Shown piece after piece: positions 13,037-39,930 of a stretch of 64,000 bases of DNA. Within the stretch, counting starts at the first letter, position 1, and each line of letters opens with the position of its first letter. This stretch comes from Prorocentrum cordatum (lineage: Eukaryota; Sar; Dinophyceae; Prorocentrales; Prorocentraceae), in assembly GCA_963575745.1 (NCBI GenBank), contig CAUYUJ010001403.1, positions 418,501 through 482,500 on the forward strand, read 5' to 3'. The notes under the pieces were generated by a model that was not told the origin of the DNA, searched no databases, and was given only the letters and a program-made list of their open reading frames with translations. Both the position numbers and the translations under genes were made by a program.

Positions 13037-13080
13037 CCTCCTCCTCCTCCTCCTCCTCCTCCTCCTCCTCCTCCTCCTCC
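13037..13080. repeat. CTC/TCC microsatellite at LINE-1 5' junction
   Basis: Perfect CTC repeats running directly into the spliced leader; the first TCC of the leader is also the last unit of the tract. A second CTC tract begins at about 20298, after the element's 3' end. Confidence 0.95.
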
Positions 13081-13099
13081 GTAGCCATTTTGGCTCAAG
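13078..13099 (+). other. Dinoflagellate spliced leader, full-length genomic copy
   Basis: All 22 nt match the dinoflagellate spliced-leader consensus: core GTAGCCATTTTGGCTCAAG preceded by CC and a T at the variable first position. It is followed at once by ATGCCT, not by the GT donor an SL-RNA gene would have, so this is a retained (relict) leader of a trans-spliced RNA. Confidence 0.9.
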
Positions 13100-13136
13100 A
13101 TGCCTTTCGTGCGGGCGGAGCCCGCATTGGCCGAAC

Positions 13137-13157
13137 TGGATACCGCTAGTCCGCGGC
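13137..13157 (+). promoter_or_regulatory. 21-nt block shared by both LINE leaders
   Basis: Core GGATACCGCTAGTCCGCGG, identical at 39956-39976, 37 nt after the leader here and 25 nt after it there. A hairpin (TGCGGGC/GCCCGCA, 13110-13126) lies between it and the spliced leader. Role unknown: internal promoter, translation or RNA-binding signal are possible. Confidence 0.5.
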
Positions 13158-13260
13158 AGTGCCAGGGTGCTTGCGCCCAACATCCTCTCTGCGAGGACTG
13201 GTCCGCCCCAGTCCATCGCCTGCCCCCTTCACTGGGAGAGCAGCTTCCCTCGCATCAGCA

Positions 13261-14565
13261 ATGGGAGGCGGCGGCAAGAAGGGCGGCGTTCGCTCGGCTC
13301 CAGCGGCAGGGGCCAAGACGACGTACATCACATGCACTTCCTGCAGATTCCGCTGGAATTTCAAGAACAACCACTGGTGCTACCAGTGCGGAGGCGCCAT
13401 GGTGCCGAGCCCTTCGGAGGACAAGCGCCCCCGCGGCCAGTGGGTTTGGGGCCCACCGCAGGCGGTCGCAACGCCTCCTCCTGAGGCAGAGCCAGCGGCA
13501 GATGCCCCTGCGGCTCCTCCCTGGGCTCAAGCAGGAGGCAAGGGCGCCAAGGGGCCACCTTTGCCCCGGCCCGCACCGAAGGCCCAGGCCGTCCAGCGTC
13601 GGCCATGGGTCTACCAGCAGGCGGGCTGGGTTCCTCATGGTGGCCGTGAAGGGCAGCAGCAGCAGCAGCAGCAGCCTGCTCATGCCGCTGACCCTTTCGA
13701 GTTCTTCGAGAAGGAGCTCGGCTCGGACTGCGACGAGCTTCTCAAGCTCAAGGCGGCGGTGCAGGCCAAGAAGGAGGCGCAGGCAGCTGCTGCTGGCGCG
13801 GGTGCCCCGCAGAAGGCGCCACTCTTTGAGGAGGAAGTGCGGGCCAAAGGCGTGGCTTGCAGGAGGGCGCTGGCGTGGCTTGAGACCTGCTCGGCCCGCG
13901 TTCTGGAGGGCCAGCAGTGGCTCGCCGACGCCCAGGCCGCAGAGGACGAGGCGGCCGCCAGCGCCCATGCGGCGCAGCAGGACTGGGAGGCGGCCTGCGC
14001 CAAGCAGGTCAAGGCCTCGGCGCCGCCGTCAGCAGCGCCACCCTCTTCTTCGGCGATCAACCTTTCGACGCTCGTCGACGAGGGCTCGCTTCAGATCGTG
14101 GACGGGCCGCTGTTCGATCTCTCGGGCCTGGAGCTCGACGAGCAGGCACGCGTGGACTGGGAGCGCATCAAGCAGGAGCTGGCCGACAGCGTCCAGACCA
14201 AGGTCCAGGAAGTCCTCGGCCCCTCGGCGCAGCGCATCCTGGAGCTTCGTGAGGAGGCTCGCAAGCTGCGCGCCAGGGAGGAGGCCAAGCGCAGGCGCGT
14301 GGACGGCAGCGATGCGGCTGGCTCTGCTGCTGGCCCCGCTGCTACTGCTGCTACTGACGGGGCTGGGCCTGCTGGCGCCGCTGCGGCAACAGGTGCTCCA
14401 GCTGGGGCCGAGGCCATGCGCGCTGCTGCCAGGGCCAAGGCCAAGTCGGCCCAGGAGGAGCTCTACGCTCAGCAGGAGGCTGCTTCCTCCTCCGCAGAGG
14501 CCGCCCCTGGTGCTCCTGGCGCCGCCCCCTCCCCTGCAGCATCAGGGGCTCCGTCCACAGCCTAA
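13261..14565 (+). CDS. LINE-1 ORF1 protein, zinc-finger and coiled-coil
   Basis: 434 residues from MGGGGKKGG; this start is chosen because it precedes the finger and begins a coherent protein. Residues 25-43 hold a C-x2-C-x11-C-x2-C finger (TCTSCRFRW...WCYQCG), close to the RanBP2 style. Then an Ala/Pro-rich linker, poly-Gln near residues 122-128, and a Lys/Glu/Ala-rich helical region (about 150-400) with likely coiled coils. The expected role, from other LINEs, is RNA binding and RNP formation. No break is seen. An unrelated frame opened by the ATG at 13100 stays open right through this gene. Confidence 0.75.
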   Translation: MGGGGKKGGVRSAPAAGAKTTYITCTSCRFRWNFKNNHWCYQCGGAMVPSPSEDKRPRGQWVWGPPQAVATPPPEAEPAADAPAAPPWAQAGGKGAKGPPLPRPAPKAQAVQRRPWVYQQAGWVPHGGREGQQQQQQQPAHAADPFEFFEKELGSDCDELLKLKAAVQAKKEAQAAAAGAGAPQKAPLFEEEVRAKGVACRRALAWLETCSARVLEGQQWLADAQAAEDEAAASAHAAQQDWEAACAKQVKASAPPSAAPPSSSAINLSTLVDEGSLQIVDGPLFDLSGLELDEQARVDWERIKQELADSVQTKVQEVLGPSAQRILELREEARKLRAREEAKRRRVDGSDAAGSAAGPAATAATDGAGPAGAAAATGAPAGAEAMRAAARAKAKSAQEELYAQQEAASSSAEAAPGAPGAAPSPAASGAPSTA

Positions 14566-14572
14566 CGCAGAT

Positions 14573-16756
14573 CGAGGGGCGCCACGCCGAGTTTTGTCGG
14601 CTCGCTGTTTCGGCGGGCGCCCCTGGCCCTACCCAGTCGACTTCTTCCTCGACTCGGATGAGGAGCGCGCTTTTGGAAGCGATACAACTACAGCACCGTT
14701 GGAGGTGAGCAGTTCGCCGACTGCGGCTCAAGGCTCGGCGGCACGTGCACCGCAGGCAAGACGTTCATCGCGTTCTGCATCGCGCGGAGCTACGCCATCC
14801 CCGAGTGTGAGGATTTCGGCCACTCGTACTTCTTCGGGCGCATCGGGTCAAGCCTCGCTGACGGGTGCGCTTGGCGGGCTGGCGTATGCTGCCCTTAATG
14901 ACAGCCCTCCCCCGAGGGCTGCGCCTCGCGCATCTACGGGACCGCAGGCCTCTGTCCCTTCAGTTACGACGGCGCACCTGTACGACGCCGAGCTGGATCC
15001 GTTCGAGGATCTGGAGCTTGAGGAGGGCAACGAGCGTTTCCGCCAGGACTCGCCGTTCGAGGCGGAGGGAGGCCCTGCTCCACCTGGCGTCACCGCCAGG
15101 CCCTCCGAGGCTAGGGCGGACCAGGCTGCCTCTTGCGGCGGCCCTACGGGCCTTGAGGCTGGCCTCAGCGCACAAGCAGCGCAGGCTTTGGCCGCTCCAG
15201 CCCCCTCCAAGCTCATATCCGATGAGATAGATTTTTCGATCCTTTACGGTAACATCACTGAGTGGGGGCCTCAAGCGCAGCGCTATGTCAACACAGCCCC
15301 TTACTCTGTGTTTTGTCTGGTGGAGACCCATGTCACCGCCGCCACGTTCCACCCCAAGACGGAGATCGAACTGGACAAAGACGGTTGGAAGGTCTGCGCC
15401 ACAGGGAGCACTCCAACAGGACGAGGAGGTTCGTCTGGCGGTGAATGGGTCATGGCCAAGAAGCACCTGGCTACCACCTCGCTGCAGGCCATTCGGCAGT
15501 ATGCGCAAGCTGCACGCCAACCTGATCTTATGCGCGGGTTCGCCGCCATGATCCTGCATTTGTCCTCGGGCAACCTGGTCTTGGTATCAGTTTATCTTTG
15601 GCCAGGATTGGGAGTTTCTGGCAGAAATCGTCAGGTGCTGGTTGCGTTAGCTTCTTTCCTTCATGGGCTTGCAGACCCTTGGTTGGTTATCGACGACTGG
15701 ACTATTTCACCAACTTCATTGGAAGGATCTGGGTGGCCTGATAAAATTGGGGGCACACTCATTCTACCTGCGGACGTCAGCACCACGTGCGATAAAGGGC
15801 AGGAGGGCTCCCTCATCGATTTCGCAATGGCCAAGTACGGAACATCGTCCAGATACCGAGTTCGGTCGCAGCCTCAGGTCCCGTGGAAGACGCATTGTGC
15901 ACTGCAGGTTGACGTCCACGATGGCATGCGCAGGTGGTGGTACCAGAAACTTTTGTTACCTGAACAGTTTCCAAAGGTAGCCAGACCCGAGCTCGCTTCG
16001 GACCCTAGCAGCAAGAGGTCTATGCTTCGAGCCCAACGGCAAGAGCAAGAACGGGCACGCGTACCACCCGATCTGCTGGAAGACTACGATGCACTACATC
16101 CCTCAAGGAGCACGTTGGATCCTGGGTCCCAGGTCTCCTTTCACATACCTTCAGACCTGTGGGAAGAGCAGCCCTCCATGGAGAGGCTCAGCTCTCAATG
16201 TTGCAGCGTTGTCGAGTCTGAGTTGTTGGGCCATATTAACGCACTCGGCCTTGGTGCCGTCACCAGACAGTACGCGCGGTGGCCCTCAGGAGTGGAACGT
16301 GCTTTCGCACTTCATCATCAACTTGACCTTCGACAACGGGCCCCACGCGCAGCTGGGTTTTCTTTGCAATGGATGCAGACCAGAGCTACCCCAGGGCGAG
16401 TGCACATGACTGATGGAGCTGGAGAATGGTGGGGAACTGTTCTCACCTTGGTTCAAAGAATCATGGCTCTTCTACGACACGGCAAGGATCCTCGCCAGAT
16501 ATCGATTTGTACCGCAGCTCTTGGTCGCTACACCAACGACGCCAGCAGCTTCGACCCATCGGATTTCTTCGGTCCAGGCTCTGAGGGCACCGCTAATCAG
16601 CAGCGGTGGATCTCCTGGTCGCGCGCATTTGCTAGCGCCACGGAGATGGAGCACGACGATTTTGCTTACTTAACTGAGAAGCTGGCCTGTCGCTCTCAGG
16701 CAAGATGTCTGACCTCGAGGCGGCAATCGTTCATCCGTTGGGCCAAGGGAGTTTGA
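14573..16756 (+). pseudogene. LINE-1 ORF2, N-terminal part with EEP endonuclease
   Basis: Endonuclease/exonuclease/phosphatase domain from about 15220 to 15930, in the frame that is open from 13100, so the true start is unclear. Family residues: Asn in YGNITEWG, Glu in CLVETHV, Asp in VIDDWT, Asp in SLIDFAMAKYG, His in WKTHCALQV. The usual GDWN is DDWT, so the Asn is lost. A basic linker follows. An in-frame TGA at 16754-16756 ends the frame. The enzyme would nick target DNA for reverse transcription. Confidence 0.75.
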
Positions 16757-16783
16757 ACGTCTAAGCCAGGACTGCTCCACTCA

Positions 16784-17017
16784 TTGGTGAAGGAACCCAA
16801 GGCGGTCTCTTCCGACCCCTTAGTGGATGGGCGAGTCGTTGGGGACCCAACTATCAGGATGGAACAGACCAGATCCACCTGGGAGAGACTCTGGCACGAC
16901 CCAGTCGACTCTCAGGCCGACATCCTCGCCATGTTCAAGCGCCTGCACGCGCAGAGCCGCGAGGAGGAGCTGGATCCAGTCAGCATCGAGCAGGTGGACA
17001 ATGTTATCAGGGTTTGA
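16784..17017 (+). pseudogene. LINE-1 ORF2, pre-RT linker
   Basis: Same frame as the segments before and after, resuming after the TGA at 16754: RMEQTRSTWERLWHDP, ILAMFKRLHAQSREEELDP. Typical of the stretch just before the RT fingers, here followed by a frame disturbance between about 17010 and 17130, where the peptide continues in another frame (IEEHGVWPAQ). Confidence 0.65.
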
Positions 17018-17128
17018 GGCACCAAGGCATGCGGAGTTGACTCCATCACACCGCTGGACATCCAGCGACTCCCACTCGAAGGTCGGTGTGATTACTGCAG
17101 GCTTCTCAACAGTATTGAAGAACATGGA

Positions 17129-20100
17129 GTGTGGCCTGCTCAGATCTTGGCATCTATTGGAGCATTATTACCCAAACCCAAAGGAGGAGAGAGGGTCATT
17201 GGATTACTTCCAGAGACGGCAAAGATATGGTCCCGCGTGAGAGCAGGCGTCACGTCCACATGGACTAAGGAGCTCTCTGATTTCTGGGGCACTGCAGTGG
17301 CGGGCAGCAGCTCGCTTCGAGCAGGACTCTTGCGAGCGCTGCTCGATGAATCCGCAGTGGCGCTTGGCATCTCGGCGGCGACCCTCCTCCTGGACTTCGA
17401 GAAGTTCTACGACTCGTTGTCCTGGATCCTCATCGGCCAGGCTGCACTCGACCCCAAGTTCCCAGCGATTGTGGTGTTGCTGGAGTTGGAGATGTGTGCT
17501 CGGCCGCGGTTCCTGCGTGGCTCTCTTGGCGTTACAGACGCCATCTACGCCACCAGGTCACTTGTTGCAGGATCCCCGCATGGGGTAAGGATTGCCAAGT
17601 TGTTTTTACATCCATTGATGGAGGCGGCACATCGCAGAGCGAGTTTCAGCACCTTCTGGACCTTCATCGATGACACTGTGGCCCGCGCAGAGGGCACGCA
17701 GGCCAAGGTCCAGACAGAGATCCTTCACGCTACGGTCACTCTGGCCGACCTCGCCAAGCAATTCCGTCTCAAGCTTTCGGACAAGTCTGTGCTCATTGCC
17801 ACCGTTCCGCAGGACGGGCGGAGGACAGCCGCTCAATTGCAGAAGCGGGGTATCCCTGTACGGTTCGGTCTTCACGGCACGGATCTTGGCATCGACGCAG
17901 CCTCTGGCAAACGGCGCACAGTCGCTAAGGCCAGAATGAGGTTGATTGCCAGCAGGAAGAGGGCGGCTCGCATTGCCCGCATACGCAGACATGCTCCTCT
18001 ACGGCGCGAAGCTCAGGGTCTTTGGACCACAGGCGCAGCTCCTCAAGGCCCCTACGGGCACCAGGCCCATGGCATGTCGCCGTCCAACGTCCTCGCCGTC
18101 AGGCGGCAGGCAGCCTTGGCTGGAGCTGGGCCCATGAAGGGCAGGTGTCTTACGACAACACTGGCGGTCCTTTACGGTCTCAAGGATCCAGCCCTGGAGT
18201 TACGACGAGGCCTTCTTTCAGAATTTCTCTGTCTCTGGAAGACCGACACCAGCATTCACCATCGAGTTGAAAATGCTTGGACTGTCATTCATCGGCGGCT
18301 TCTGGCAGTTGGCGCCAACAAAAGATGGAGACTGGTCAAAGGACCGATTGGAGCTGTCATTGCGACTTTGCTTGACGCGGGATGGGAAGTACCCTCGGTT
18401 CTACGTTGGAGGAGGCCCACTGTCGGAGGAATCGAGGAGTGGCTGATCCCAACCGCACGACGTGCAGGCTACGACCCCACTGGGTTCGACATCTCCGAGC
18501 TGCTGGACGACGTGGTCACTGATTTTCGCGCTCAGCTTTGGAGCAATGCGTCGAAGCACATGGCAGGTGATGGCCTGGCTGAGGGAGCTGACCTCTATTG
18601 GGCCAGGCTGGAGCTCAGCCACTTCGCCAAGAAGGGGGAGCTCGACCTGTTCGGCCTCAATTTGTGCGTGGTCACGGGCGCCCAGTGGACGATGGACAGG
18701 CAGCACCCTCTGAGTGAGCCCGCTGACCGCCTGTGTCCGCGATGCCAGCAGGAGGAAGAAACTCTTGCGCATCGCATCTGGCGTTGCCCCTGCAATAAAG
18801 ATCACAGTGATTTCACGTCGACTGATCATTTGATTCCGCAAGCGTTAGCGTCTGTTGAATCTGAACCAAGCCTTTGGCTGAGAGGTGTTCCGCCTACCCG
18901 TGTCACCCACCCTGTTTTCAGGGAGCCGCTGGAGAGCCTGAGCAGAGCCCAACTAGGTGAGGTCCCTCTTGGAGCCTGCTCTAGAGACCCTGGCAGCAGC
19001 CCGTTGATCGGCTTCGGGGACGGATCTGGAGGACGCTTTTCGTCCGACCCTCGTCGCCGTCGTTGCGGCTCCGCTGTCGTTGTGGTCAGGGACGCTCGAC
19101 CTGGGGAGGGACCTTTGCGTTGGGCCGTCTTGGGGGGCATCTCCGAGATTTTGCGAGGCCCCTCGCAAACGGTGCCCAGGTCGGAGCTGCAGGCTTTCGC
19201 CCTCTTTCTGGACAGCACCACTGGTCCTGTCCATTTTGTGACGGACCACAAGCCTCTCATGACGGGGTGGAGTCGGGGCCGACCTTGGAGCTTGGGGGGG
19301 AGGAACAGCGATCTGTGGCTGCGAATTCGTTGCGCCATCGACGACCGAGGCCCAGGGCATGTCTCGGTCGAATGGACGCCCTCGCACCTGTCCCCTGACG
19401 ACTCCTCCCTCTCCCATCACGAAGTTTTTCTTGCCAGTGGTAATCAGTTAGCCGACGAAGCGGCTTCTGAAGCCGCTGAGCGCTCCTGGACTTTGGCCGC
19501 CCAGATTGTCCCCGCCACAGACGCCCGGGACCTCACCGCTGCTCTGGTGCGTCGAAGGGCTCGGCGGGCTCTGGCAGACGCCTCTTCGGCGGACCCCAAG
19601 CGTGCCAAGGCCCCGACGGAGATCGAGCGGCCTAGGCCGAAGACCGCCGAGACCCGACGCCTTGAGCACGCGGCCAGGGCCAGCTCTCACAGATTTATTC
19701 CTGTCGGGTCCCGTTTCAGGTGCCAACTGTGCTCTGTTCTTTCGTCCCGACAGGGCCTCTTAGAGGCCCTGAAGACGGAGTGCTTTTCGCCGCTGGTCGT
19801 CCCTCCTGGGTTCCCTCGGGACGTGGTGGCCGCGGCTCGTTGTGGCGTCGCTGTTGGTGGGCTGGAGCTCGACCCCTCCCACCGTCTGGGATTCTGGGAC
19901 TTGCATTCCTTGCATTTTTGTTTCAGATGTGGTCGGACCGCGACCGTTGACGGTCGCCATTTGGCCGAAGGTTGCGGGCCCCCCACTCGCAAAGGCCGAG
20001 AGAATCTCGGCCGAATTAAACGCGGGCTGTTTCCGAGCTATGCGGGGCCTTCTAAGGCCTCGCAAGCGATTTCGCATGCGAGGTTAGTGGACGCATGCGT

Positions 20101-20209
20101 CGCCGGGGAGACAGCACAGCGTGCCAGGAAACCAAGCCCTGTACCCTCCCACGCGCCCTCTTCCCCTTGCGGGGAGGAGAAGGCGCTGGGGGTGGCTGCT
20201 ACGGAGTAG
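17129..20209 (+). pseudogene. LINE-1 ORF2, reverse transcriptase, RNase H and C-terminal finger
   Basis: 1026-codon frame. RT: LLPKPKGGERVIGLLPETAK (fingers), motif A TLLLDFEKFYDS with catalytic Asp at 17393-17395, and the FIDD form of the YxDD motif at 17663-17674; both Asp present. RNase H: Asp in IGFGDGSGG (19019-19021), Glu in RSELQAF, Asp in VTDHKPLM, His in TPSHLSP, Asp in GNQLADEA, all expected residues present. The C-terminus has CQLC and CFRCG pairs, a possible zinc-binding end. This part is uninterrupted; only the upstream breaks inactivate it. Confidence 0.85.
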
Positions 20210-20297
20210 CCACCTTGGGTGCAGGTGCTTGGCCTCCTCCCTCTGTTTTCCCCTCCTCCTTTTTTAGCACGCTGTGCTGCGCAAAAGGTCCAAAGGT

Positions 20298-20425
20298 CCT
20301 CCTCCTCCTCCTCCTCCTCCTCCTCCTCCTCCTCCTCCTCCTCCTCCCCCTCCTCCTCCTTCTCCTCCTCCTCCTCCCCCTCCCCCTCCCCCTCCCCCTC
20401 CCTCTCCCCCTCCCCCCGGGAGCTC
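20298..20425. repeat. TCC/CCT microsatellite at LINE-1 3' junction
   Basis: Long TCC tract grading into CCCCCT units, beginning after a short 3' UTR (20210-20297). Together with the 5' CTC tract it brackets LINE-1. Confidence 0.95.
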
Positions 20426-20429
20426 CAGG

Positions 20430-20735: not shown

Positions 20736-20754
20736 TCATAGTCCCACGATGAGC

Positions 20755-22349: not shown

Positions 22350-22605
22350 AGCGTTTTTTCTTTCGCGGGGGCCCCGGTGTGGTGACCACGTCGTGTGCTG
22401 AGTCAGATCACCGCACCGTTTTGGGACTCGGGTCGTTCCCGGAGGACGTCTCGGGCGACGGGGGCCGCCAGGGTCCCACAACCGTGCGGTGACGGACCGC
22501 GCGGTGAGGTCTTTTGGGGTCCCGAGGTCCCCGCGCGTTCTGTCACCGCACGGCTTTGGGGCCCCCCACTATCACCGATGTTCGACCTCCAGGGGCCGCT
22601 CCTGG
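22350..22605. repeat. GCGGTGA/TCACCGC repeat family F, copy 1
   Basis: Alternating complementary words: ATCACCGCACCGTTTTGGGA, GTGCGGTGACGGACCGCGCG, TCACCGCACGGCTTTGGGGC. Copy 2 is at 23031-23285 in the duplicated unit; a diverged copy lies at 50515-50740. It can fold through the repeated ACCGCAC/GTGCGGT pairs. Confidence 0.7.
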
Positions 22606-22784
22606 GCCTGCAGAGACCATTCGGCAACGGTCTGGGGTGGACACCTGGCCCAGGGGCAGGGGTTGAACCACGTCGTTCTGCACGCATCCGGAGCAGTGCG
22701 ACGCAGGAGATCTGGGGAGCGGGGCGGGGCGAGGGGGTCGGCCTTCTGATAAGACCGGGGTCTTCGCCAGGATCGGACCTACGC

Positions 22785-22960
22785 TGTCGTCGTCGTCATC
22801 GCAGTCGTCCACAGTCGTCGTCGTCGTCGTCGTCGGAGTCGTCCGCGCCGTCGTCGTCGAAGTCGTCCGCGCCGTCGTCGTCTGCGTCGTCGTCGTGGTT
22901 GTGGTCGTTGTTGTCGCTGCGGTCGTCGTCGAGGCCGCTGTCGTCGTCGACGTTGGCTTC
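22785..22960. repeat. GTC/GTCGTC microsatellite
   Basis: TCGTCG trinucleotide tract with a few interruptions; repeated at 23465-23640 in the second duplication unit. Confidence 0.9.
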
Positions 22961-23690
22961 TGAGAGGCCCCGGCGCCTTCTTGGAAGGCCCCTCCCCCTG
23001 CAGCACGTGTCTCCGTCTATCGCCCTTGCCAGCGTTTTTTCTTTCGCGGGGGCCCCGGTGTGGTGACCACGTCGTGTGCTGAGTCAGATCACCGCACCGT
23101 TTTGGGACTCGGGTCGTTCCCGGAGGACGTCTCGGGCGACGGGGGCCGCCAGGGTCCCACAACCGTGCGGTGACGGACCGCGCGGTGAGGTCTTTTGGGG
23201 TCCCGAGGTCCCCGCGCGTTCTGTCACCGCACGGCTTTGGGGCCCCCCACTATCACCGATGTTCGACCTCCCGGGGCCGCTCCTGGGCCTGCAGAGACCA
23301 TTCGGCAACGGTCTGGGGTGGACACCTGGCCCAGGGGCAGGGGTTGAACCACGTCGTTCTGCACGCATCCGGAGCAGTGCGACGCAGGAGATCTGGGGAG
23401 CGGGGCGGGGCGAGGGGGTCGGCCTTCTGAGAAGACCGGGGTCTTCGCCAGGATCGGACCTACGCTGTCGTCGTCGTCATCGCAGTCGTCCACAGTCGTC
23501 GTCGTCGTCGTCGTCGTCGGAGTCGTCCGCGCCGTCGTCGTCGAAGTCGTCCGCGCCGTCGTCGTCTGCGTCGTCGTCGTGGTTGTGGTCGTTGTTGTCG
23601 CTGCGGTCGTCGTCGAGGCCGCTGTCGTCGTCGACGTTGGCTTCTGAGAGGCCCCGGCGCCTTCTTGGAAGGCCGCTCCCCCTGCCACAC

Positions 23691-23875
23691 GTGCCCATTC
23701 GCGCAGCGCGAGTCCGATAGCAGGGAGGCAGGCCAGTCCCAATGGTAAGGCTGATCAGATATATGAGGGAATTAGCCTGGCGAAGGACCCAACCATATGC
23801 AGCTGCGTGTACCGCACGGATATGAGACGAAGGAGGGGGCACGCAAACTAGGCCCCTTCTTCTCATAGGCACCGC
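23691..23875. other. Intron 3, spacer
   Basis: Unique sequence between the 680-bp duplication and the 89/90-bp array; nothing recognised. Confidence 0.4.
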
Positions 23876-25005
23876 GCCACTGGGGCCTTCGGTGGAGCTC
23901 CCTATGGGGCCACGAAACGTGTGAAGGGTGTGCCGAAATGGGTGGTGGGGAGGCATGCGGACCCTGCCACTGGGGCCTTCGGTGGAGCTCCCTATGGGGC
24001 CACGAAACGTGTGAGGGGTGTGCCGAAATGGGTGGTGGGGAGGCATGCGAACGCAGCCACTGGGGCCTTCGGTGGAGCTCCCTATGGGGCCACGAAACGT
24101 GTGAGGGGTGTGCCGAAATGGGTGGTGGGGAGCCACTGGGGCCTTCGGTGGAGCTCCCTATGGGGCCACGAAACGTATGAGGGGTGTGCCGAAATGGGTG
24201 GTGGGGACGCATGCGAACGCAACCACTGGGGCCCCTTCGGTGGAGCTCCCTATGGGGCCACGAAACGTGTGAGGGGTGGGCCGAAATGGGCGAGGGGCGG
24301 CATGCCAACTCTGCCACTGGGGCCTTCGGTGGAGCTCATTATGGGGCCACGAAACGTGTCAAGGGTGTGTCGACATGGGTGGCGCGGACGCATGCGAACC
24401 CTGCCACTGGGGCCGTCGGTGGAACTCCCAATGGGGCCACGAAACGTGTGAGGGGTGTGCAAAAGTGGGTGGGGGCGGCATGCGAACCCTGCCACGGGGG
24501 CCTTCGGTAGAGCACCCTATGGGGCCACGAAATGCGTGAGGGGTGTGCCAAAGTGGGGTGGGGGCGGCATGCGAACCCTGCCACTGGGGCCGTCGGTGGA
24601 GCTCCCTATGGGGCCACGAAACGTGTGAGGGGTGTGCCAAAGTGAGATGGGGGCGGCATGCGAACCCTGCCACTGGGGCCTTCGGTGGAGCTCCCTATGA
24701 GGCCACGAAACGTGTGAGGGGTGTGCCAAAGTGGGGCGGGGGCGGCATGCGAACCCTGCCACTGGGGCCTTCGGTGGAGCTACCTATGGGGCCACGAAAC
24801 GTGTGAGGGGTGTGCCAAAGTGGGGTGGGGGCGGCATGCGAACCCTGCCACTGGGGCCTTCGGTGGAGCTACCTATGGGGCCACGAAACGTGTGAGGGGT
24901 GTGCCAAAGTGGGGTGGGGGCGGCATGCGAACCCTGCCACTGGGGCCTTCGGTGGAGCTCCCTATGGGGCCACGAAACGTGTGAGGGGTGTGCGGAAATG
25001 GGAAC
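23876..25005 (+). repeat. 89/90-bp tandem array, 13 copies
   Basis: Unit: GCCACTGGGGCCTTCGGTGG, AGCTCCCTATGGGGCCACGA, AACGTGTGAGGGGTGTGCCG, then AAATGGGTGGTGGGGAGGCATGCGAACC-like. Early units are 90 bp (one shortened to 76), later ones 89 bp with AAAGTGGGGTGGGGGCGGCATGCGAACC-type 3' part, so the array has two diverged halves. Thirteen ATGGGGCCACGAAA-type blocks were counted (one reads ATGAGGCC). In the 90-bp half a frame stays open on both strands. No unit resembles a protein domain. Confidence 0.92.
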
Positions 25006-31228: not shown

Positions 31229-31249
31229 GTCCAGGGACAACCCCTGCAC

Positions 31250-31640: not shown

Positions 31641-31679
31641 AATCTGCAGCCTTGTACCACGATGTACCACAACAGCTAA

Positions 31680-32345: not shown

Positions 32346-33389
32346 CACGATGTGCCACAGGGGAATCCTGGGTTGTCCTGGGAAGTGATGGCGGGGGTGA
32401 ACGTCAATAGTGCTGGGTATCGCGGCGGGGGGGGGCGTGCCATGGGGTCCTGGCGGGCGCTGGAGAGTGCTGCGAAGCGCTGGATGTCTTGGGCACTGGG
32501 GAGACCTGGGAAGGGCAGGAGGGCCCTGGGCAGCCCTGGAGGGCCCCGTGGGATTCTCAGGAGCGTTGGGTGTCCTGCGGGGGCGCGGCTGGGCGGCGCC
32601 CCAGTGCAAGGGTCCGAAGAGCAAGCCCACGCAACTCCGCAGCGGCGATGTGCAGCGCCGCTGCCATCAAACAGGCTTGCAAGTGGCCTGGCACTGCCGA
32701 GACCCCCCCTTCCGGCCCCTTCCCACCCCTTCAAGGACAGGCATCCCTCGTCTCCACTCTTCCTTGTAGTTCTCGAAGCTTGTTCTACATGTGTTTCGCG
32801 CGGCACGGTATACGGTGGGGGCGTTCGATAAGGAACGTGCCCAGGAGGCTTCAGACCCTGGAGGGTTCCGTATCTGATGAGGGCGGCGGTGAATTCCATG
32901 GCCAATCCACGACTGGAGTTCCACTGGCTTCCAGACCCTGGACTTCTCATCGAAGGTTTCCTTATCCAATGCCACCACCGTGTGCGGAGGATTCCCGAGG
33001 CCACAGCCTCCTCCACCTGGTCTTGGAGACGCCCGGGCGTCTGTCCGCAGTGGTGGTCGCTCGCTCGCCCTGCCAGATTGGGCAAAGCTTACAGCCACCC
33101 CCCCAAGTTCACCCCTGCACAAACAAGGGGGGCGGGCCTCTGCAAACAAAAAAACGCAGGGGGTAGGAGGGACGTGACGATCATCTCAGCACAAGGCACC
33201 CCTCTCAGAGGCCCTCTTGAAGCATGTAGGAGCACAGGCTACGTCTAGATCAAGCAGTCAGGAAAGCCTCGCACGCAACTTTCGGGCCCCTTTGGGATAC
33301 TCTTCTGCGCCAAGCAATACACTTGCCTGCAAGTGCCGGTAACCGCTGTGAGTATGCCCCCCACCCCTCTCGTGAACCGTTGTGGGTAT
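32346..33389. other. Intron 6, mostly unique
   Basis: Contains a GGGCCCTGG/GCCCTGGAGG-rich stretch at 32430-32620 resembling the minisatellite at 8515-9040; the rest is unique. Open frames on both strands lack any recognised motif. Confidence 0.4.
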
Positions 33390-33548
33390 GCCCTCCTGGG
33401 AATTGAAAAAAGAGTTCAATGTCGAGTGTGGAGTTGGGAAAACGTTGAATTTCGAGTTGCACGTTGAAGGAAGAGTTGAAGTTAGAGTTGGGCGTTGAAG
33501 AAAGAAATACTTGAAATTCAAGTTGGGAGTTGAAGAAATCTGAATGGA
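33390..33548. repeat. GAGTTG/GTTGAA minisatellite
   Basis: About ten degenerate units of GAGTTGxxAGTTGAA type, 12-24 bases apart, purine-rich and AT-richer than the surroundings. Confidence 0.7.
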
Positions 33549-33769
33549 AATGGTGTGCTGGGAAGTTGCTAGCGGGCCAGTTGGATGCGGTTAATTGGCT
33601 TGTTGGATGTGAGATGATGGGTTGCAGCTCGAGGATCTCAACCAATCGTAACCTCAGGGCCGGATCGGTGTCGGGCACCCTTCCAATCATCCAAGGCAGC
33701 GTTCACTGCAGCCCCTCACCCTCTTCCTCGTCTTCGTGTATCGCCCCCCCGCGCCCTTGTCCCGCGTCT

Positions 33770-33896
33770 CTGACCCTTCTCCTCCCCCTCCGTCTCCTCC
33801 TCCTCCTCCCCCTCCTCCTCCTCCTCCTTCTCCCCACCTTCTCCTCCTCTTCCTCTTCCTCCTCCTCCTCCATTCCTTCTCCTTATAGATAACTCC
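33770..33896. repeat. TCC microsatellite preceding 83-bp-repeat element
   Basis: CTCCTCC tract ending TCCTTATAGATAACTCCTCC. Analogous tracts with ATAAATAACTCC and GATGAATGAATCC ends precede the copies at 54895 and 55615. Confidence 0.9.
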
Positions 33897-34850
33897 TCCC
33901 TGTCGCACCCCGAGGCCAGTTTTTAGGGCGGGCCGGGCGTTTCGCCTGAGACTTCCTCACCACTTATGACTCTGAAGCTTCAAAAGTGACAACAGTTTCA
34001 CAGATGGAGTGCGGGGGAGGGGGGTCAAAATGTGGCTCTCGCATTAGCGCCGCGCAAATTCGTTTTCAAAATTTGCAAGAGCTTCACAGATTGAGGGCAG
34101 GTCGTTTTCAAAATGTGGCTCTCGCTTTTGCGCCGTGCACATTCGTTTTCAGAAATTGCAAGAGCTTCACGGATTGAGGGCGGACGGTTTTCAAAATGTG
34201 GTTCTCGCGTTAACGCCGCGCACACTCTTTGGAAAACATTACAAGAGCTTCACGGATTGAGGGCGGATGGTTTTCAAAATGCGGCTCTCGCTTTAGCGCC
34301 GCGCACATCCTTTGTAAAACATGCAAGAGCTTCACGGATGGAGGGCGGGTGGTTTTCAAGATGTGGCTCTTGCCGTAACGCCGCGCACACCCTTTGTAAA
34401 GAATAGCAAGAGCTTCACGGATTGACGGTGGCTCCTTTTGCAAATGTGGTTCTTGCCTTAGCCCATATTAGCGCCACGCAGATTCGTTGCATAAAATGCA
34501 AGAGTTGCATGGATCCCCATGATCAACGTACCAAAAATGGCGTTCGGGAAGGATTCAGGATTATGCAGGTGTAACAATTGTGTTGGCTCGCTGTGTTGAA
34601 TTGTTTAGAAAATGGCGTTATGGCACGATCCCGGATGGCCAAAACGCACCAGTCAGGTTGATGCGTGGCGTTGAAACCCCGAGAACAATGATTTGGCATG
34701 CTTCAGGATCTTCAAACGGTTGTCTTCCAACGAGGCAGTTCCCTCAATGGAAATGAACCGTTGTATGGGGCATATGAAGAGGGAGCTTGGAGGGAGGGTT
34801 AATTCCAACATTGTTGATGACTCTTGGGTTTACACTGGCCCTCCTTCCTC
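33897..34850 (+). repeat. 83-bp-repeat element, most complete copy
   Basis: Starts CTGTCGCACCCCGA, then GGGCG(T/G)TTCGCCTGAGA, CACCACT.ATGACTC, then six tandem subrepeats (34025-34513), then a unique part (CTTCCAACGAGGCAGTTCCC; AGAGGGAGCTTGGAGGGAGG; GTTGATGACTCTTGGGTTTACAC) and ends at a TCC tract. Other copies: 6270-6790 (inverted), 54895-55600, 55615-56215. No coding capacity recognised. Confidence 0.85.
34025..34513 (+). repeat. Six tandem 82-83-bp subrepeats
   Basis: Unit starts at 34025, 34108, 34191, 34274, 34356 and 34439. Consensus words: TTTTCAAAATGTGGCTCTCG, TTAGCGCCGCGCACA, GCAAGAGCTTCACGGATTGA, GGGCGG. Single subrepeats or pairs occur in the other copies of the family. Confidence 0.92.
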
Positions 34851-34920
34851 CTCATCCTCCTCTTCGTCGTCCTCCTCCTCCTCCTCCTCCTCCTCCTCCT
34901 CCTCCTCCTCCTCCCCCCGT
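34850..34920. repeat. TCC microsatellite
   Basis: TCCTCC tract closing the 83-bp-repeat element. Confidence 0.95.
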
Positions 34921-35640
34921 CACCTGTTTCCTTTTCCAGTTGCTTTTCACAGAAGATAGGGGCGAAAAGGAGTGAGGGAGAAAGGGCGAGGTGGCAATAG
35001 ACGGCGACGGTGCAGAATATGATGCACTAGTCAAGAGGCAGGCGGCAGGAGTAGGGGAGCGAACAAGAGGAGGAAGAGGAGGAGGAGGAAGAGGAAGGGG
35101 AGGAGGATAACGGAGAAGAGCGGAGGATGAGGAGGAGGGGGATGACCAGGAGCCAGAGGGTGGTCGAGAAGGACGGCGCCCAAGCCACGTGCCAATGGGT
35201 GCACAGAGGGCAACGGCGACGAGGATGAGGAGGGGCGGGGTGGCCGAGTCGAACGAGGAGTCCAAGTCAGAGTCCGAGGGAGAAGGTCAAGCTGGGAGGG
35301 GGGTGGGCGGCCAGGGGCCCGGAGGGGAACGCGGGAGAGGGTGGTGAGCGTTTGGTTGTGCGGAAAGTACAAACAGTGCAGCGTGCCGCTACTGCGGGGC
35401 AGACACCGCAGCACAAAACCAAAAACCAAATACAGCAAAATGCAGTACGGCTGCGCAATCTCTGGTGGGCGCAGCAAAACAGCCATGGGACAAAAAGCAA
35501 GCCAACCAGGCTGGGATCCCGTATCGCGTCGCCCGGACCCCGAGTGTCTTTTTGGCAGTCTTGAGGAAGGTCCGCGCTGCATCGAGAGCCCCAAGTCCCA
35601 AGCGCCCGAACGTAGCGATGCACCCCGAACCCAAGTGGCA
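34921..35640. other. Intron 6, non-coding
   Basis: GGA-rich stretch at 35040-35180, then unique sequence. Open frames on either strand show no motif. Confidence 0.4.
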
Positions 35641-36595
35641 CATTAGCTGTCAATGTTCTGCCAACTTGTTCCCCAGCGCGTTCAGCAATCACCACGCGCC
35701 CAACCCTTTTTCGCCAATGCGATCAGCACGCGCGGCGCCCTGGCCACGTCGCTACAAAATATCAACATCAAGCAAACATCTGCCGCAACAGTACCCACAA
35801 GTCATGCAAGATGCCCAATCAACTGTTCCAACGCAAGGAACCTCATTTTTTTACCACATAACTCCGCCGACACATACAGGGCTCCCCATCATTTTGCCAA
35901 TATGCACAGCGAACCCCAACAGGTTAACCAACACGCGTGTTGCGAGTGATGGGGAACCCAACAACTCAACCGACATATAACGAATTCCCAATCACTTCCC
36001 CAACCACTTTGCCAGCACCACGGGGTTTCCAACAATTGTTTCAACAGTTGCCTTACCCAAATAATTCAAAGTCTTAGACGCAGATCCCATCGTAACTCTA
36101 GTCCCCCCGTTCCTCCAATCCCCACCGTTCCCCTTGTTCTCCCCTTCTCGCCCCTCCTTGCTTTCCATGCGATGCCCCCCTCCCTTGCAGTTGACCGAGC
36201 GGAAACGTTCCGAACAGGCAAACTCGCAGCTGTCCACGGGATCGGTCGCATGCAGTTGTCTGGAGCGCAACTTTGGGTCGCGATACGCCGCGCAGGCATT
36301 GACGATGTGGAGGATTCGCAGAGCGGGCGGGTTCTACACTCCTTGCGCAAGTCTTCCTACCCCCGCGGTCGGGGAGCGAAAATAGGCAATGCATAAAGAG
36401 TCCACGAATTCTTAGAGACGACACGACACGATTATTCACCCAGGATACAGCATTCCTGAGCAAGAAAAACTAAATGGCGACGAATAGGGTTCTGGCTCAC
36501 TGCCAACTGTCGCAGCCGGTTTGCGGCCTTGCCGTTTTATGCGAATTCGGTGCCGCAGAATTTAGTTTGATAAAAACCGATGCGTTTGTCTTCGA
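35641..36595. other. Intron 6, degenerate CAACxxGTTGCCA-type sequence
   Basis: Loose short repeats of GCCAACTTG/CCAACACG/CCAATCA words in 35640-36070, then unique sequence to 36595. No gene recognised. Confidence 0.4.
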
Positions 36596-36629
36596 AGCCA
36601 CTTGGATGGGGTCAGAGTAAACGGGGTCA

Positions 36630-36785
36630 GAGAATCGCGCCGCATCGCCGATGCATCGGCGATGCGGCTCGATGTGGAGCCCAACTTGTTCCACGCCGAC
36701 GACGTCGCCGAACCATCGCCGACGCGCCGATGCATCGCCCATGCGTCGGCGATGCATCACCGATGCGGCGCGATCCTCCGACCGT
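36630..36785. repeat. GCATCGGCGATGC palindrome cluster
   Basis: About a dozen GCGATGC/GCATCGC/CGATGCG words in both orientations within 150 bases, e.g. CGCCGATGCATCGGCGATGC at 36646-36665 and CGTCGGCGATGCATCACCGA near 36744. Each is self-complementary or complementary to its neighbours. Confidence 0.8.
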
Positions 36786-36863
36786 AATTGCCCAGGCCCC
36801 ATGTGGGAGGACTCCAGGCTTGGAGGCCCACCTCGAACCATCAGAATCTATGTTGGGCCAGGC

Positions 36864-37072
36864 TGTCCACGCAAGTAGGTCCGGAACGGATATAGTTCGG
36901 TAGATCGACAGTTGAGCGATCGAGAGATCGCCGTCCGTCTACGGAAAAGCATCGTAATCTCTTTTAGGCCAGACTGTCCACGCAAGTAAGTCTTGAGCGG
37001 ATGCAGGTCGGTAGATCGATGGTTGAGCGATCTAGAGATCGCAGTCCGTCTGTGGAAAAGGTCCCGTCCATG
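36864..37072 (+). repeat. 112-bp tandem duplication
   Basis: TGTCCACGCAAGTAGGTC at 36864 and TGTCCACGCAAGTAAGTC at 36976 open two diverged copies sharing CGGTAGATCGA.GGTTGAGCG-type, GAGATCGC.GTCCGTCT and CGGAAAAG/TGGAAAAG blocks. Confidence 0.8.
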
Positions 37073-37197
37073 TGCAGTTCGGCAGGTCGAAGCGGACCTC
37101 CAAGAGGGGGGTGGGGGGCCCCTGCAGATTTCCAGGGGCCCTCACGCACGGTGGGCGCAGGGGCCTCCGCGCTGGCGGATCTCAGAGAATCCGCGAG

Positions 37198-37290
37198 GTG
37201 GGCCGTGTGCGACCTGGTCAGCCTGCCCCAGGCGAAGGCTGGGGACCCCCCAGGCTGGGCCTTCAGGACGGACTCGCAGCACTTCACGAG
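37198..37290 (+). CDS. Host gene exon 7 (B module 3, first half)
   Basis: After CCGCGAG, phase 2: R-WAVCDLVSLPQAKAGDPPG, WAFRTDSQHFT and a split Arg. Corresponds to the first 31 residues of exons 3 and 5. Ends TTCACGAG|gagcac, a GA donor; the acceptor of exon 8 is preceded by TCCACGAG, so CACGAGGAG stands at both intron ends. 93 nt. Confidence 0.7.
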
Positions 37291-37701
37291 GAGCACTGGG
37301 GTCCAGACTCAGAGGAGCGCGAGTTCAGACAGAGGTAGTTGGCCTTCGGGGGGGTCCCTCGTCACCAGGGCTTGACGCAGCTCGAACAACTTATGCGTTT
37401 GGACCAGCAGAGGGGTCTGGGGACCGATTTGAGCTGCCGTTGTCTCAACTCGCCCTTCTCCGATAGACGCACGCCTCCTCCACCTGATTTTGGGCGCTTC
37501 GTGTCTGTGGCTTCACCCCTCTTGGAGAGCTTGCCAGTCCGTTCACCCCCGCCCAGGAACGGTTCGGGCGGACTCGCCTTCGGAGTCCCATCGCCGACCA
37601 TCGCCGATCTGTCGGCTACGCGTCGCAGAGTCCAGCTCGATGTTTCCCCTCCCCTGGGCCAAACCACCCCAACGTTGCCCTCCCACCCCCTCCTCCACGA
37701 G
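37291..37701 (+). other. Intron 7 (GA-AG)
   Basis: 411 nt between CACGAG|GAGC and CACGAG|GAGT. Its interior is unique; CCGATCTGTCGGC is a small hairpin. The boundary direct repeat means the exact splice point can slide, giving GA-AG or alternatives with the same product. Confidence 0.5.
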
Positions 37702-37926
37702 GAGTGCGGGCGTGTGGATGGAGGCCCACGGCCGCGAGTGGAGGAGGGCGGAGGTCGCGTGCACGGTGCTGGAAGGAACCGTCCGCCCCGACGCGGCGGC
37801 GGTGAAGACGGAGCAGGCGGCCGACGACGCCCGGCTGAGCGCGGAGCAGTACAAGACGCTCGTGCGCCGCGTGTACGAGCAGAAGAACCCAGGCAAGTTG
37901 CCCGACCTCCCCGCGATCTTGGACAG
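37702..37926 (+). CDS. Host gene exon 8 (B module 3 end, C module 1 start)
   Basis: Phase 2 start: SAGVWMEAHGREWRRAEVAC matches the GWxExxxxxW end of module B. Then TVLEGTVRPDAAAVKTEQAA, and LSAEQYKTLVRRVYEQKNPG, KLPDLPAILD with a split Arg. The latter half is the first helical part of module C, repeated in exon 10. Ends GGACAG|gtgcgt, GT donor, phase 2, 225 nt. Confidence 0.75.
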
Positions 37927-38123
37927 GTGCGTCAGATGTCCGTTTGAGAACCTTTCCTGGGGCCCAGCTGACGGATCTGTTCGGCTCTAGCTCGACTATG
38001 GTTCGACTCAAGCTTCACTTGAGCTCGACTCGAATTCGGCTCGAGCCGACGGACGTTCGACGCAGCATCGATGCATGGGTGGAGCGAGCTGCTCCAGAAG
38101 GGTACCCAAACCCAGCATCGGAG
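37927..38123 (+). other. Intron 8, a repeat-derived (introner-like) intron
   Basis: 197 nt, gtgcgt...cggag. From 37969 to about 38120 it is homologous to the dispersed repeat at 8222-8390: ACGGATCTGTTCGGCTCTAG, ATGGTTCGACTC, CGGACGTTCGACGCAGCATC, GGGTGGAGCGAG. So nearly the whole intron is one repeat copy. Confidence 0.7.
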
Positions 38124-38309
38124 GTACGAAGGCACGGAGCACGAGCTCTTCAGCATGGTCTGCGAGAAGTACCAGGTCGACGCGGACGAGTTCGCCGCCG
38201 CCGAGGCCGCGGCGAAGGCCGCCGAGGAACAGCCCCCGGGCGGCGAGGAAGAGGAGGAGGAGTACGCCCACCTCGCCGGAGCGGAGTGTCCCGAGCTGAC
38301 GGCGCGGGA
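38124..38309 (+). CDS. Host gene exon 9 (C module 1 end, acidic linker, C module 2 start)
   Basis: After CATCGGAG, phase 2: YEGTEHELFSMVCEKYQVDA, DEFAAAEAAAKAAEEQPPGG, an acidic run, then CPELTARE just before the intron. LTARE-Y corresponds to LSAEQ-Y in exon 8. Ends GCGGGA|gtactc, GT donor; exon 10 supplies G to complete Glu. 186 nt. Confidence 0.72.
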
Positions 38310-38519
38310 GTACTCGGAGGGCGCCGGCCAGACGCCCGCACCGATCCTGGCCACGCCGATCCCCGGCGCCAGGATCGGTCCACAGGTCCCCCTGGCCACG
38401 CGAGGTTGGGCGTCCAGCAGGGCGCAGGCACCCATCCTGGGGCTGGTGGATGGGCCCGGCGAGGATCGGTGCGGGCAGATGCAGACCCAGAGGTCCGAGC
38501 CATCGTTCGGGCCGGACGA

Positions 38520-38690
38520 AAGGGGGGGAATTGGGAAAGGGGGGGGTACGAAATTTGCTGCATGCAGCCGGTTTCGGCCCCACCGAGGGGCCCATTCCTC
38601 GTTACATAACCGCCTCCGGCGCCAGGAAGATCAGCTACGTGAGCTGATTCTCAAACCTCCCCTTTGCTATCCCCCCCTTTCGCCTGACCC
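38520..38690. repeat. Dispersed foldback family C, copy 2 (in intron 9)
   Basis: Matches 5840-5998; purine-rich start GGGGGGAATTGGGAAAGGGG complements the end CCTCCCCTTTGCTATCCCCC. Takes up about a third of the 571-nt intron 9. Confidence 0.72.
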
Positions 38691-38880
38691 GAATCGTGCG
38701 TTTTCATCTGCGGCCCCAGAGATCCCTACACACTCCCCAGGGGCAGTCTTGCGTCGCCGAAGCGCTTTTGATGGTCCTGGGGCCCGATCGCAGGCCCCCG
38801 ACGCCTAAAACTAGGGAGAGCGCCAGGACTGAAGAAACCATGGCGGCGGCGATTTGAGCGTATAGCGGGCGCCCTCCCAG

Positions 38881-38966
38881 GTACGCCACCCTCGTCCAGA
38901 ACGTGTACCTGCGGCACAACGCGAAGAAGCTGTCGGACATGGGGCGCCTTCTGGTGAAGTACAAAG
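38881..38966 (+). CDS. Host gene exon 10 (C module 2, first half)
   Basis: After CTCCCAG: YATLVQNVYLRHNAKKLSDM, GRLLVKYK. Aligns with YKTLVRRVYEQKNPGKLPDL of exon 8. Ends TACAAAG|gtcatg, GT donor, phase 1; exon 11 adds GG to give KYKG. 86 nt. Confidence 0.75.
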
Positions 38967-39019
38967 GTCATGGGCATTTTCAGGGGAGAATGGGCTTAGG
39001 GGGAATTCATCGACCCCCG

Positions 39020-39275
39020 AACGCCCATGCATCACCAAGATGTGCCCGATTGCCCATCCCGCCCAGGGCGGTTCTCGGGGAACAAACCACGACAGAAACG
39101 AAACACCTTCGGAGTTCCGCGCGGATTTCTTGGATAGGCGCCAGACCCCGCTCCCTGGAGCGCGGACCGCGCCAGGGGCTGTGCCGAAGGCGCCGCCAGG
39201 GGGCCACAGCGCAGATCCAAAACAAAGACCCGCGGACCTCAGACAGTTCATGCTTATGAAATTGTTTGTTACCCA
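39020..39275. repeat. Dispersed repeat family J, copy 1 (in intron 10)
   Basis: Shares TTC(C)GCGCGGATTTCTTGGAT and CTGGCGG/CCGCCAGG-rich interior with 49555-49700, and AACAAACC.CGA.A / GTTTTTGTTT ends in inverted arrangement. The interior GGCGCC words are self-complementary. Confidence 0.55.
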
Positions 39276-39337
39276 ACGTGCGGCTTTGCCAGAGGGGGCC
39301 CATCTCACCGATCTGTCGGCGATCTATCGTTAAGTCG

Positions 39338-39482
39338 GTCCTATCCCTCTACAGGAGGAATATCCAAGAATAGTCAAAAATTAGTCTGGCGGCGATGTTT
39401 TGACTATTTTTGCCATTTGGGGGGTATTTTTTGAGTATCCGTTGTTTTTCGCCCAAAATCCCCCCTGTAGGGGGGCACGCCC
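39338..39482. repeat. AT-rich foldback element, family A, copy 2 (in intron 10)
   Basis: CCCTCTACAGGAGGAATATC at 39345 parallels CCCTCTACAGGAGGGATATT at 4330; right end CCCCCTGTAGGGGGGCACGC near 39462-39480. AATAGTCAAAAATTAG pairs with TTTTGACTATTTTTGCC. Diverged from copy 1 but same design. Confidence 0.75.
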
Positions 39483-39543
39483 AATTTAAATCGATCGCCG
39501 ATCCCAGCGTTCGACGTCTCCCCCGACCGCTCCCCCGCAAGAG

Positions 39544-39635
39544 GGCGCGAGCGGGAGCTGCTCCACGAGGTGTGCGCCAAGTACGGCGAGAGCCCCGCGG
39601 TCCTCCACGCGAGATGCGAGAGGGAGAAGCGGCAG
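39544..39635 (+). CDS. Host gene exon 11 (C module 2, second half)
   Basis: After GCAAGAG, phase 1: G-RERELLHEVCAKYGESPAVL, HARCEREKRQ. Aligns with EHELFSMVCEKYQVDADEF of exon 9. A GC donor after CGGCAG (39635) is one possible end; the following sequence soon becomes a TCC tract. Further exons would have to lie beyond LINE-2 and were not recognised. Confidence 0.65.
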
Positions 39636-39654
39636 GCGCCGTCGTGGCCTCCAC

Positions 39655-39908
39655 TCCTTCTCCATTCCCCTCGTCCTCCACCGCCTCCTCCTCCTGCTCC
39701 TGCTCCTGCTCCTCCTCCTCCTCCTCCTCCTCCTCCTCCTCCTCCTCCTCCTCCTGTCGGCTCCTTGCCCACTGCCTTCTCCTCCTCGGCGCTCCCCGGC
39801 CCGGGGCCTCGACGGCCTTGCCCGGCTCCTCTTCGCCCTCTGCTTCCTCCTCCACCTCCTCCTCCTCCTTCTGAACCTCCTCCTCCTCCTCCTCCTCCTC
39901 CTCCTCCT
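39655..39908. repeat. TCC microsatellites at LINE-2 5' junction
   Basis: Two TCC/CTC tracts (39690-39755, 39850-39908) with GC-rich sequence between; the second runs directly into the spliced leader. Confidence 0.95.
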
Positions 39909-39930
39909 TCCGTAGCCATTTTGGCTCAAG
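39909..39930 (+). other. Dinoflagellate spliced leader, second full-length genomic copy
   Basis: 22 of 22 nt as at 13078-13099, again directly followed by ATGCCT, and again preceded by a TCC tract. Not an SL-RNA gene, since no GT donor follows. Confidence 0.9.

Follow-up and report, generated by a model that had tools for sequence, protein, structure and literature searches.

Spliced leaders at the 5' ends of LINEs in the dinoflagellate Prorocentrum cordatum suggest copying from trans-spliced RNA

Two long interspersed nuclear elements (LINEs) in a 64,000-nt stretch of the Prorocentrum cordatum genome (contig CAUYUJ010001403.1, positions 418,501 to 482,500 of the forward strand; called the window here) begin with a complete 22-nt dinoflagellate spliced leader (DinoSL). 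Sequence comparison with leader copies elsewhere in the genome indicates that these elements, which we call LINE-A and LINE-B, and other LINE families have the leader as their 5' boundary. We consider it very probable that LINEs with an EEP endonuclease are copied from trans-spliced, leader-bearing RNA, often into microsatellites, and that leaders are re-added over successive cycles. The initial annotation of this DNA had proposed that the LINE RNAs are trans-spliced and copied back; the genome-wide DNA evidence largely supports this proposal, trans-splicing itself being the step that we infer.

Leaders and LINEs in the window

We searched the window with CCGTAGCCATTTTGGCTCAAG, a 21-nt part of the 22-nt leader, and counted the preceding T separately. 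Exact matches were found at 13079-13099 and 39910-39930, each with a T before it (13078, 39909) and ATGCCT after it; a shuffled control gave 0 matches in 100 shuffles with up to 3 mismatches allowed. These matches confirm that complete 22-base leaders (13078-13099 and 39909-39930), directly followed by ATGCCT, stand at LINE 5' ends, as had been claimed in the initial annotation. T 13078 may alternatively be the final base of the preceding CCT array. T 39909 was counted as a leader base because it is out of phase with its CCT array and because a T is also present in 9 of 11 leaders flanked by GGA arrays elsewhere. Both window leaders are single, with no tandem copy.

LINE-B extends from 39909 to somewhere past 44.9 kb. 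Its Pfam match to the reverse transcriptase family RVT_1 (PF00078, 1.8e-07) is above the curated cut-off, and a weak match to Exo_endo_phos (0.0033 on 41687-42553) is below it. A P. cordatum protein with PF00078 shares 38% identity with the LINE-B frame across 49% of the query, and 6 of the 16 protein relatives of LINE-B are assigned to this species. For LINE-A (13078 to about 20296), the Pfam search gave no match, neither to a reverse transcriptase nor to an endonuclease. This element was recognised as a LINE because it is homologous to the leader locus L049: in tblastn, 17027-19387 matches the part of the L049 frame that spans reverse transcriptase and RNase H (2.7e-17, 24% identity). In L049, the leader is followed by a 2640-aa open frame with Pfam endonuclease, reverse transcriptase and RNase H in that order; RNase_H (9.5e-08) is above the cut-off, RVT_1 (9.2e-04) and Exo_endo_phos (0.0049) are both below. 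An EEP/APE endonuclease above the cut-off was found upstream of the reverse transcriptase in the relatives L039, L041 and L058. The first open reading frame (ORF1) of LINE-A lies in frame 2 relative to the leader-adjacent ATG and has, by eye, a zinc-knuckle-like CTSC...CYQC close to its start.

Genome-wide association of leaders with LINEs

The P. cordatum genome (4.13 Gb) contains 14,218 exact copies of the leader 21-mer, and the reversed control gave 0. ATGCC directly follows 468 of these leaders. The count is far above the 496 and 244 putative leaders that the available text of PMC8045281 gives, by another method, for two Symbiodinium genomes. As leader sample we used the first 50 listed places (L001-L008, L039-L080; contigs C1 to C35), which were not chosen by sequence and are not a random draw from the genome. 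The sequence before the leader in L060, and that after it in L059, is limited to 30 nt. For 20 of these loci (L039-L058) we analysed 9 kb, about 1 kb upstream and 8 kb downstream of the leader.

In 13 of the 20 loci, the roughly 5 kb behind the leader contain homology to the reverse transcriptase frames of LINE-A or LINE-B, in all 13 on the leader strand. The initial annotation had asked what fraction of leaders lies at LINE 5' ends, and these numbers suggest that most sampled leaders mark such ends and that many leader relicts mark elements and not copied host genes. The further claim that the two window insertions are 5' complete also held up: they appear to reach the first leader base, and the T is present in 45 of the 50 sampled leaders, although for CCT-flanked leaders it may belong to the array.

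The leader as 5' boundary

Boundaries were compared among 30 loci with leader plus ATGCC (L037 and L038 are the window copies) together with the leader sample; low-complexity arrays were filtered, and the comparison is conditioned on the leader. Seven families had at least two copies matching over at least 1 kb, one of which (L023/L026) was untestable since L026 begins at a contig end. In five of the six testable families the related copies align from base 1 after the leader and not directly before it. L024 and L033 also have 36 nt of upstream sequence in common, and its spacing from the leader differs between the two.

A test independent of the leader started from the 20-nt box GGATACCGCTAGTCCGCGGC, which occurs in 2225 exact copies genome-wide. 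All of the first 15 copies (to contig C108) are preceded by a leader, exact in 8 and decayed in 7. The exact leaders lie 26 nt (six copies), 38 or 41 nt ahead of the box; the decayed ones keep 14 to 20 of 21 bases and are located at exactly 26 nt. The initial annotation had named LINE copies that extend past the leader point without a leader as evidence against its reading. All 15 boxes are led by a leader, and the copies that do extend upstream (L010, L014, L017) keep theirs.

In L010, L014 and L017, homologous non-microsatellite sequence (GTGTACAC.GGCGCT...) lies directly upstream of the leader, perhaps as a target recognised by its sequence. By selection, all three leaders are exact, and the flanks on both sides diverge.

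Tandem leaders

A second leader (score of at least 8) was found directly inside the first in 13 of the 50 sampled loci; 0.54 were expected by shuffling and a control stretch gave 0 of 49. Eight of the 13 inner leaders are inexact, and L046 and L071 have, by eye, an apparent third leader. Genome-wide there are 1202 exact tandems of a full leader and a 15-nt leader truncated at the internal AG, which is the form expected from splicing at the internal TAG of the leader. Thus, the tandem leaders that the initial annotation had suggested looking for are present.

We then compared inner and outer copies genome-wide and unselected, leaving seven homologous positions free. The outer copy was intact in 1531 tandems and the inner copy in 1399. 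Mutated inner copies therefore exceed mutated outer copies by 132, whatever the common count of exact 35-mers (at least 1202). The numbers are 329 versus 197 if this count is 1202 (p=9e-9) and 281 versus 149 if it is 1250. Since inner copies carry more mutations, inner leaders are the older ones. A count of tandems with up to 2 mismatches (2747) could not separate inner from outer mutations.

L006 and L048 share 77 nt of related sequence (79%), and their leaders are joined 7 nt apart, at either end of the first 7 bases of an old leader: the L006 leader joins where L048 has 7 extra bases, which are the start of the old full leader. The two junctions are best read as two separate splicing events. 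Tandem leaders are also present in loci with reverse transcriptase homology (L039, L044, L048), and therefore LINE RNA would be among the re-spliced RNAs. L008 was not counted as a tandem-leader LINE because its reverse transcriptase-homologous frame opens at the start of the locus, before the leader. The proposed heritability of the leader proved half right: the leader is inherited, but inheritance is not its sole source, as the data point to repeated re-addition.

Microsatellite flanks

Directly upstream of the 50 sampled leaders we found a CCT array in 24 and a GGA array in 11 cases, and neither in 15; at random positions drawn from the window and the 9-kb loci the background was 4.0%. Some of the 15 adjoin, by eye, TA-, CA- or TCA-type repeats. 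Among 29 loci with leader plus ATGCC and upstream sequence, CCT was seen by eye in 25 (both window copies included) and GGA in 0. Genome-wide, CTCCTCC lies within 2 nt of the leader in 2868 of 14,218 cases, and 1.0% was expected from the window; counting a single array phase gave 440 leaders, and the all-phase count was used instead. An array of matching motif at the 3' end is present in LINE-A and in 5 of 11 CCT- or GGA-flanked loci with reverse transcriptase homology (L039, L043, L045, L047, L057). In L049 the open frame reaches the end of the stretch examined for a 3' array. These flanking sequences make microsatellites the apparent target of many of the LINEs.

A further leader family (L041, L061, L070) begins with GCCATG, has CCCGACGAC soon after, and lies behind TA- or CA-type repeats, not CCT. 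These loci perhaps represent other target specificities.

A two-hairpin element and the frame of ORF1

In many families the leader is followed by an ATG, a hairpin of variable sequence (hairpin I) and a second hairpin, GGATA-CCGC-TAGTCC-GCGG (hairpin II), which forms the box. The box lies 38 nt past the leader in LINE-A (13138-13157) and 26 nt past it in LINE-B (39957-39976). Some pairs of families are alike in the first 60-150 nt only.

Similarity to the consensus gave 52 rows, of which 39 scored at least 15 of 23; the remaining 13, with scores of 13-14 and 1-3 of 4 pairs, were treated as lacking the box. After omission of 9 near-duplicates and of L052, L078 and L080 (judged relict or unrelated, 1-2 of 4 pairs), 27 rows (22 distinct) were aligned. 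Hairpin II pairs in 98.9% of the cells and three of its four pairs change on both sides, whereas slid versions pair in at most 48.9%. For four of five measures, 0 or 1 shuffles among 500 did as well; further pair types, the remaining measure, were not exceptional (197 of 500). By these alignment measures hairpin II is covarying. For the 5' element the Stouffer sum over 33 rows is -9.4, which we use as support only, as it rests on mononucleotide shuffles and related families that are not independent; it includes an L013 row on the wrong strand, and z is positive for L028 and L083.

Over the first 600 nt, counted from the leader ATG, 6 of 7 families vary most at index 1 mod 3; the peak is weak in L014/L017, and L016/L019 have too few differences for this test. 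Because of this periodicity, ORF1 is placed in a frame other than that of the leader ATG and the element is assigned to the 5' untranslated region. The leader-adjacent ATG was therefore dropped as start of ORF1. The mismatch is not universal, since in L041 and L049 the leader ATG is in frame with a long open reading frame. The box could be read as coding (DTASPRP from the leader ATG in many loci), and this was rejected because of the frame of ORF1 and because L012 keeps the box out of frame; we treat the box as noncoding RNA. We favour the explanation that the hairpin element either helps initiation to bypass the out-of-frame ATG or is recognised by LINE proteins.

A pseudoknot of GGA/UCC with CCGC/GCGG was rejected because it is lost, by eye, in L049 and L053. 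An Rfam scan of the LINE-A 5' end up to E 5 gave no ribozyme family among its matches and nothing convincing. In several families the TAG of the hairpin II loop (13147-13149, 39966-39968) would stop the ORF1 frame; some loci have TGG or other bases in its place.

Features of the window

Table 1 Positions of the two LINEs and their flanks in the window
Feature	Position	Strand	Evidence
(CCT)n microsatellite, 5' flank of LINE-A, likely insertion target	13037..13077	+	Tandem Repeats Finder (TRF) 13037-13080, 100% matches
Complete 22-nt dinoflagellate spliced leader, LINE-A 5' end	13078..13099	+	exact match
LINE-A 5' structured element: leader-adjacent ATG, hairpin I, box GGATACCGCTAGTCCGCGGC (hairpin II)	13100..13160	+	
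LINE-A ORF1	13261..14565	+	open frame 13159-14565, codon-position analysis; probable start codon
LINE-A frame with reverse transcriptase / RNase H homology	17129..20209	+	tblastn of L049
(CCT)n at LINE-A 3' end, motif and strand as in 5' flank	20297..20413	+	
Imperfect CCT-rich tract, LINE-B 5' flank	39669..39908	+	TRF, 67% matches
Complete 22-nt spliced leader, LINE-B 5' end	39909..39930	+	exact match
LINE-B 5' structured element: ATG, hairpin I (TGCTT/AAGCA), box/hairpin II	39931..39980	+	
LINE-B EEP (APE-like) endonuclease region, interrupted by stops/frameshifts	41259..42553	+	weak Exo_endo_phos; tblastn of L058, L041
LINE-B frame with reverse transcriptase	42571..46410	+	PF00078 1.8e-07

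Apart from the LINEs, the window contains two tandem, near-identical open frames (22395-23066 and 23076-23720) with the common start MLSQITAPFWDSGRSRR, a recent local duplication. Two tandem arrays were seen at 23876-24993 (unit of 89/90 bp, GCCACTGGGGCCTTCGGTGGAGC..., about 12 copies) and at 34025-34462 (unit of 83/165 bp). At 39361-39480, about 200 bases upstream of the CCT tract of LINE-B, there is by eye a partial inverted repeat (ATAGTCAAAA ... TTTTGACTAT).

Discussion

The following cycle would account for these data. LINE RNA would be trans-spliced to the 22-nt leader of the host, reverse transcribed up to its capped end and inserted; since the leader-bearing RNA is copied to this end, each insertion would begin with a complete leader. 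Many families would target microsatellites: (CCT)n in most cases, entered in a constant orientation, and in other families (GGA)n and apparently TA-, CA- or TCA-type repeats, the choice probably being made by the endonuclease. The new copy would be transcribed again, probably by read-through from a host transcription unit, and its RNA would gain a new leader. Splicing at the TAG within the old leader would create the known 15-nt relict, and splicing upstream would keep the full old leader inside. Use of the old leader's own final AG may restore one perfect leader per cycle. In CCT-targeting families the array ahead of the leader would provide the acceptor with its pyrimidine tract. Such a supply cannot be general because 11 of the 50 leaders follow (GGA)n.

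More tentatively, and here we are rather doubtful, these LINEs may have handed their 5' end over to the host: they would need no promoter, (CCT)n and the AG-ending leader would form a ready trans-splice acceptor, the hairpins would mark the RNA for initiation or reverse transcription, and the elements would be the source of leader-tagged retroposition in dinoflagellates.

Several observations weigh against copying from re-spliced RNA into microsatellites. Fifteen of the 50 leaders adjoin neither a CCT nor a GGA array, and the 11 leaders behind (GGA)n have no pyrimidine tract. In 6 of the 11 array-flanked loci with reverse transcriptase homology, no downstream array of six perfect units of the same motif was found in the stretch examined. 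In the L014/L017 family (with L010) homologous sequence is also present upstream of the leader, which is itself retained. Among the 13 inner leaders, 5 are exact too, and the outer ones owe their exactness to selection. In most copies there is one leader only, as would also be expected if the leader is inherited as DNA, for instance as a promoter. Finally, two starting queries with iteration detected no LINE homology in 7 of the 20 extended loci.

The single leaders, and the ATG that follows the leader in many families, would suit an element that captured its leader once and now passes it on as DNA and internal promoter, with RNA that starts at the leader and receives no new one. The available text of PMC6050394 argues for a possible promoter function of retroposed DinoSL; for retrogenes, Song et al. 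put forward the idea of a TTTG motif in this role. Such a promoter is hard to reconcile with tandem leaders in 13 of 50 loci, with inner copies that are inexact in 8 of the 13 and more mutated than outer ones, with the different junctions in L006 and L048, or with the decayed leaders ahead of 7 of the 15 boxes, and we consider it improbable. The identity of the leader across unrelated families is no evidence for either side since the loci were chosen by an exact leader. For host genes, relict leaders are a well-established finding (PMC3229502 and PMC7245778, as far as their available text goes), so that the leaders might mark retroposed host genes with LINEs merely nearby; the 7 loci without detected LINE homology would agree with this. 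The constant strand of the reverse transcriptase homology in the other 13, and the box, common to LINE families, behind the leader in 15 of 15 copies, make this explanation very unlikely, and it is already contradicted for both window copies.

SLACS and CZAR elements of trypanosomes insert into arrays of spliced-leader RNA genes, and adjacency to a leader alone would be compatible with LINEs that took up the leader in this way as target DNA. It is mostly a microsatellite that lies ahead of the leader, the window leaders run into ATGCCT and not into a GT donor, and decayed and tandem truncated leaders fit RNA splicing rather than target DNA. Insertion into leader genes, the least probable of the explanations considered, was rejected without a search for the spliced-leader RNA genes of this genome and is contradicted for the window copies. 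We thus prefer copying from trans-spliced RNA with re-addition of leaders.

LINEs with 5' leaders are a direct candidate for the driver of leader-tagged retroposition, an element described as unknown in the available text of PMC6050394, where long terminal repeat elements are favoured. Relict leaders are used to count retroposed dinoflagellate genes, and with 13 of 20 preceding LINE proteins such counts may need a LINE filter. Full leaders could serve as exact markers of 5'-complete LINE insertions, and tandem leaders could count element cycles. Among the papers listed from the open-access literature, including PMC12014239, PMC11453091, PMC10666404, PMC7789003 and PMC12460157, we found in the available text no report of spliced leaders as LINE 5' ends. 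The microsatellite target and the 5' hairpins are parts that go beyond the initial annotation.

A close known system is formed by DinoSL-tagged retrogenes that retain relict leaders (Slamovits and Keeling 2008, after the available text of PMC3229502 and PMC6050394). In both cases leader-bearing RNA would be copied into the genome, tandem relicts are cut at the internal AG, and inner relicts are more decayed. A second leader is given there for about 20-25% of full-length transcripts, versus 13 of 50 genomic leaders here; for Polarella, PMC7245778 states in its available text only 0.7-2.3% of all transcripts. The units there are host genes, whereas here they are LINEs, often at microsatellites, and the 5' box alone has 2,225 exact copies. 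LINEs have also been proposed as the machinery of leader-tagged dinoflagellate retroposition for the endogenisation of dinoRNAV with dinoSL relicts (PMC10235124). That case concerns viral genes near LINEs, and leaders at LINE 5' ends were not found reported in the available text of the paper.

The trypanosomatid elements L1Tc/ingi with Pr77 (PMC8190864, PMC4035085 and PMC4748587, in their available text) are likewise non-LTR elements in a host that trans-splices its genes, and they carry a short 5' hallmark common to otherwise different families; this likeness concerns the arrangement only, as the Pr77 sequence was not compared. Pr77 provides its own promoter, an unspliced RNA and a ribozyme like that of hepatitis delta virus (PMC8190864, available text), whereas the LINEs described here start with a spliced leader. 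A LINE 5' end made by trans-splicing would contrast with how trypanosomatid elements solve this problem, with unspliced RNA and a promoter and ribozyme of their own.

Microsatellites are targeted by R1-clade LINEs such as Waldo and Mino. Here, too, the LINEs seem to have entered simple repeats in a fixed orientation. Target-specific LINEs are also covered in PMC4640811. The P. cordatum elements differ in their CCT and GGA targets, in their dinoflagellate host and in the spliced leader at their 5' end.

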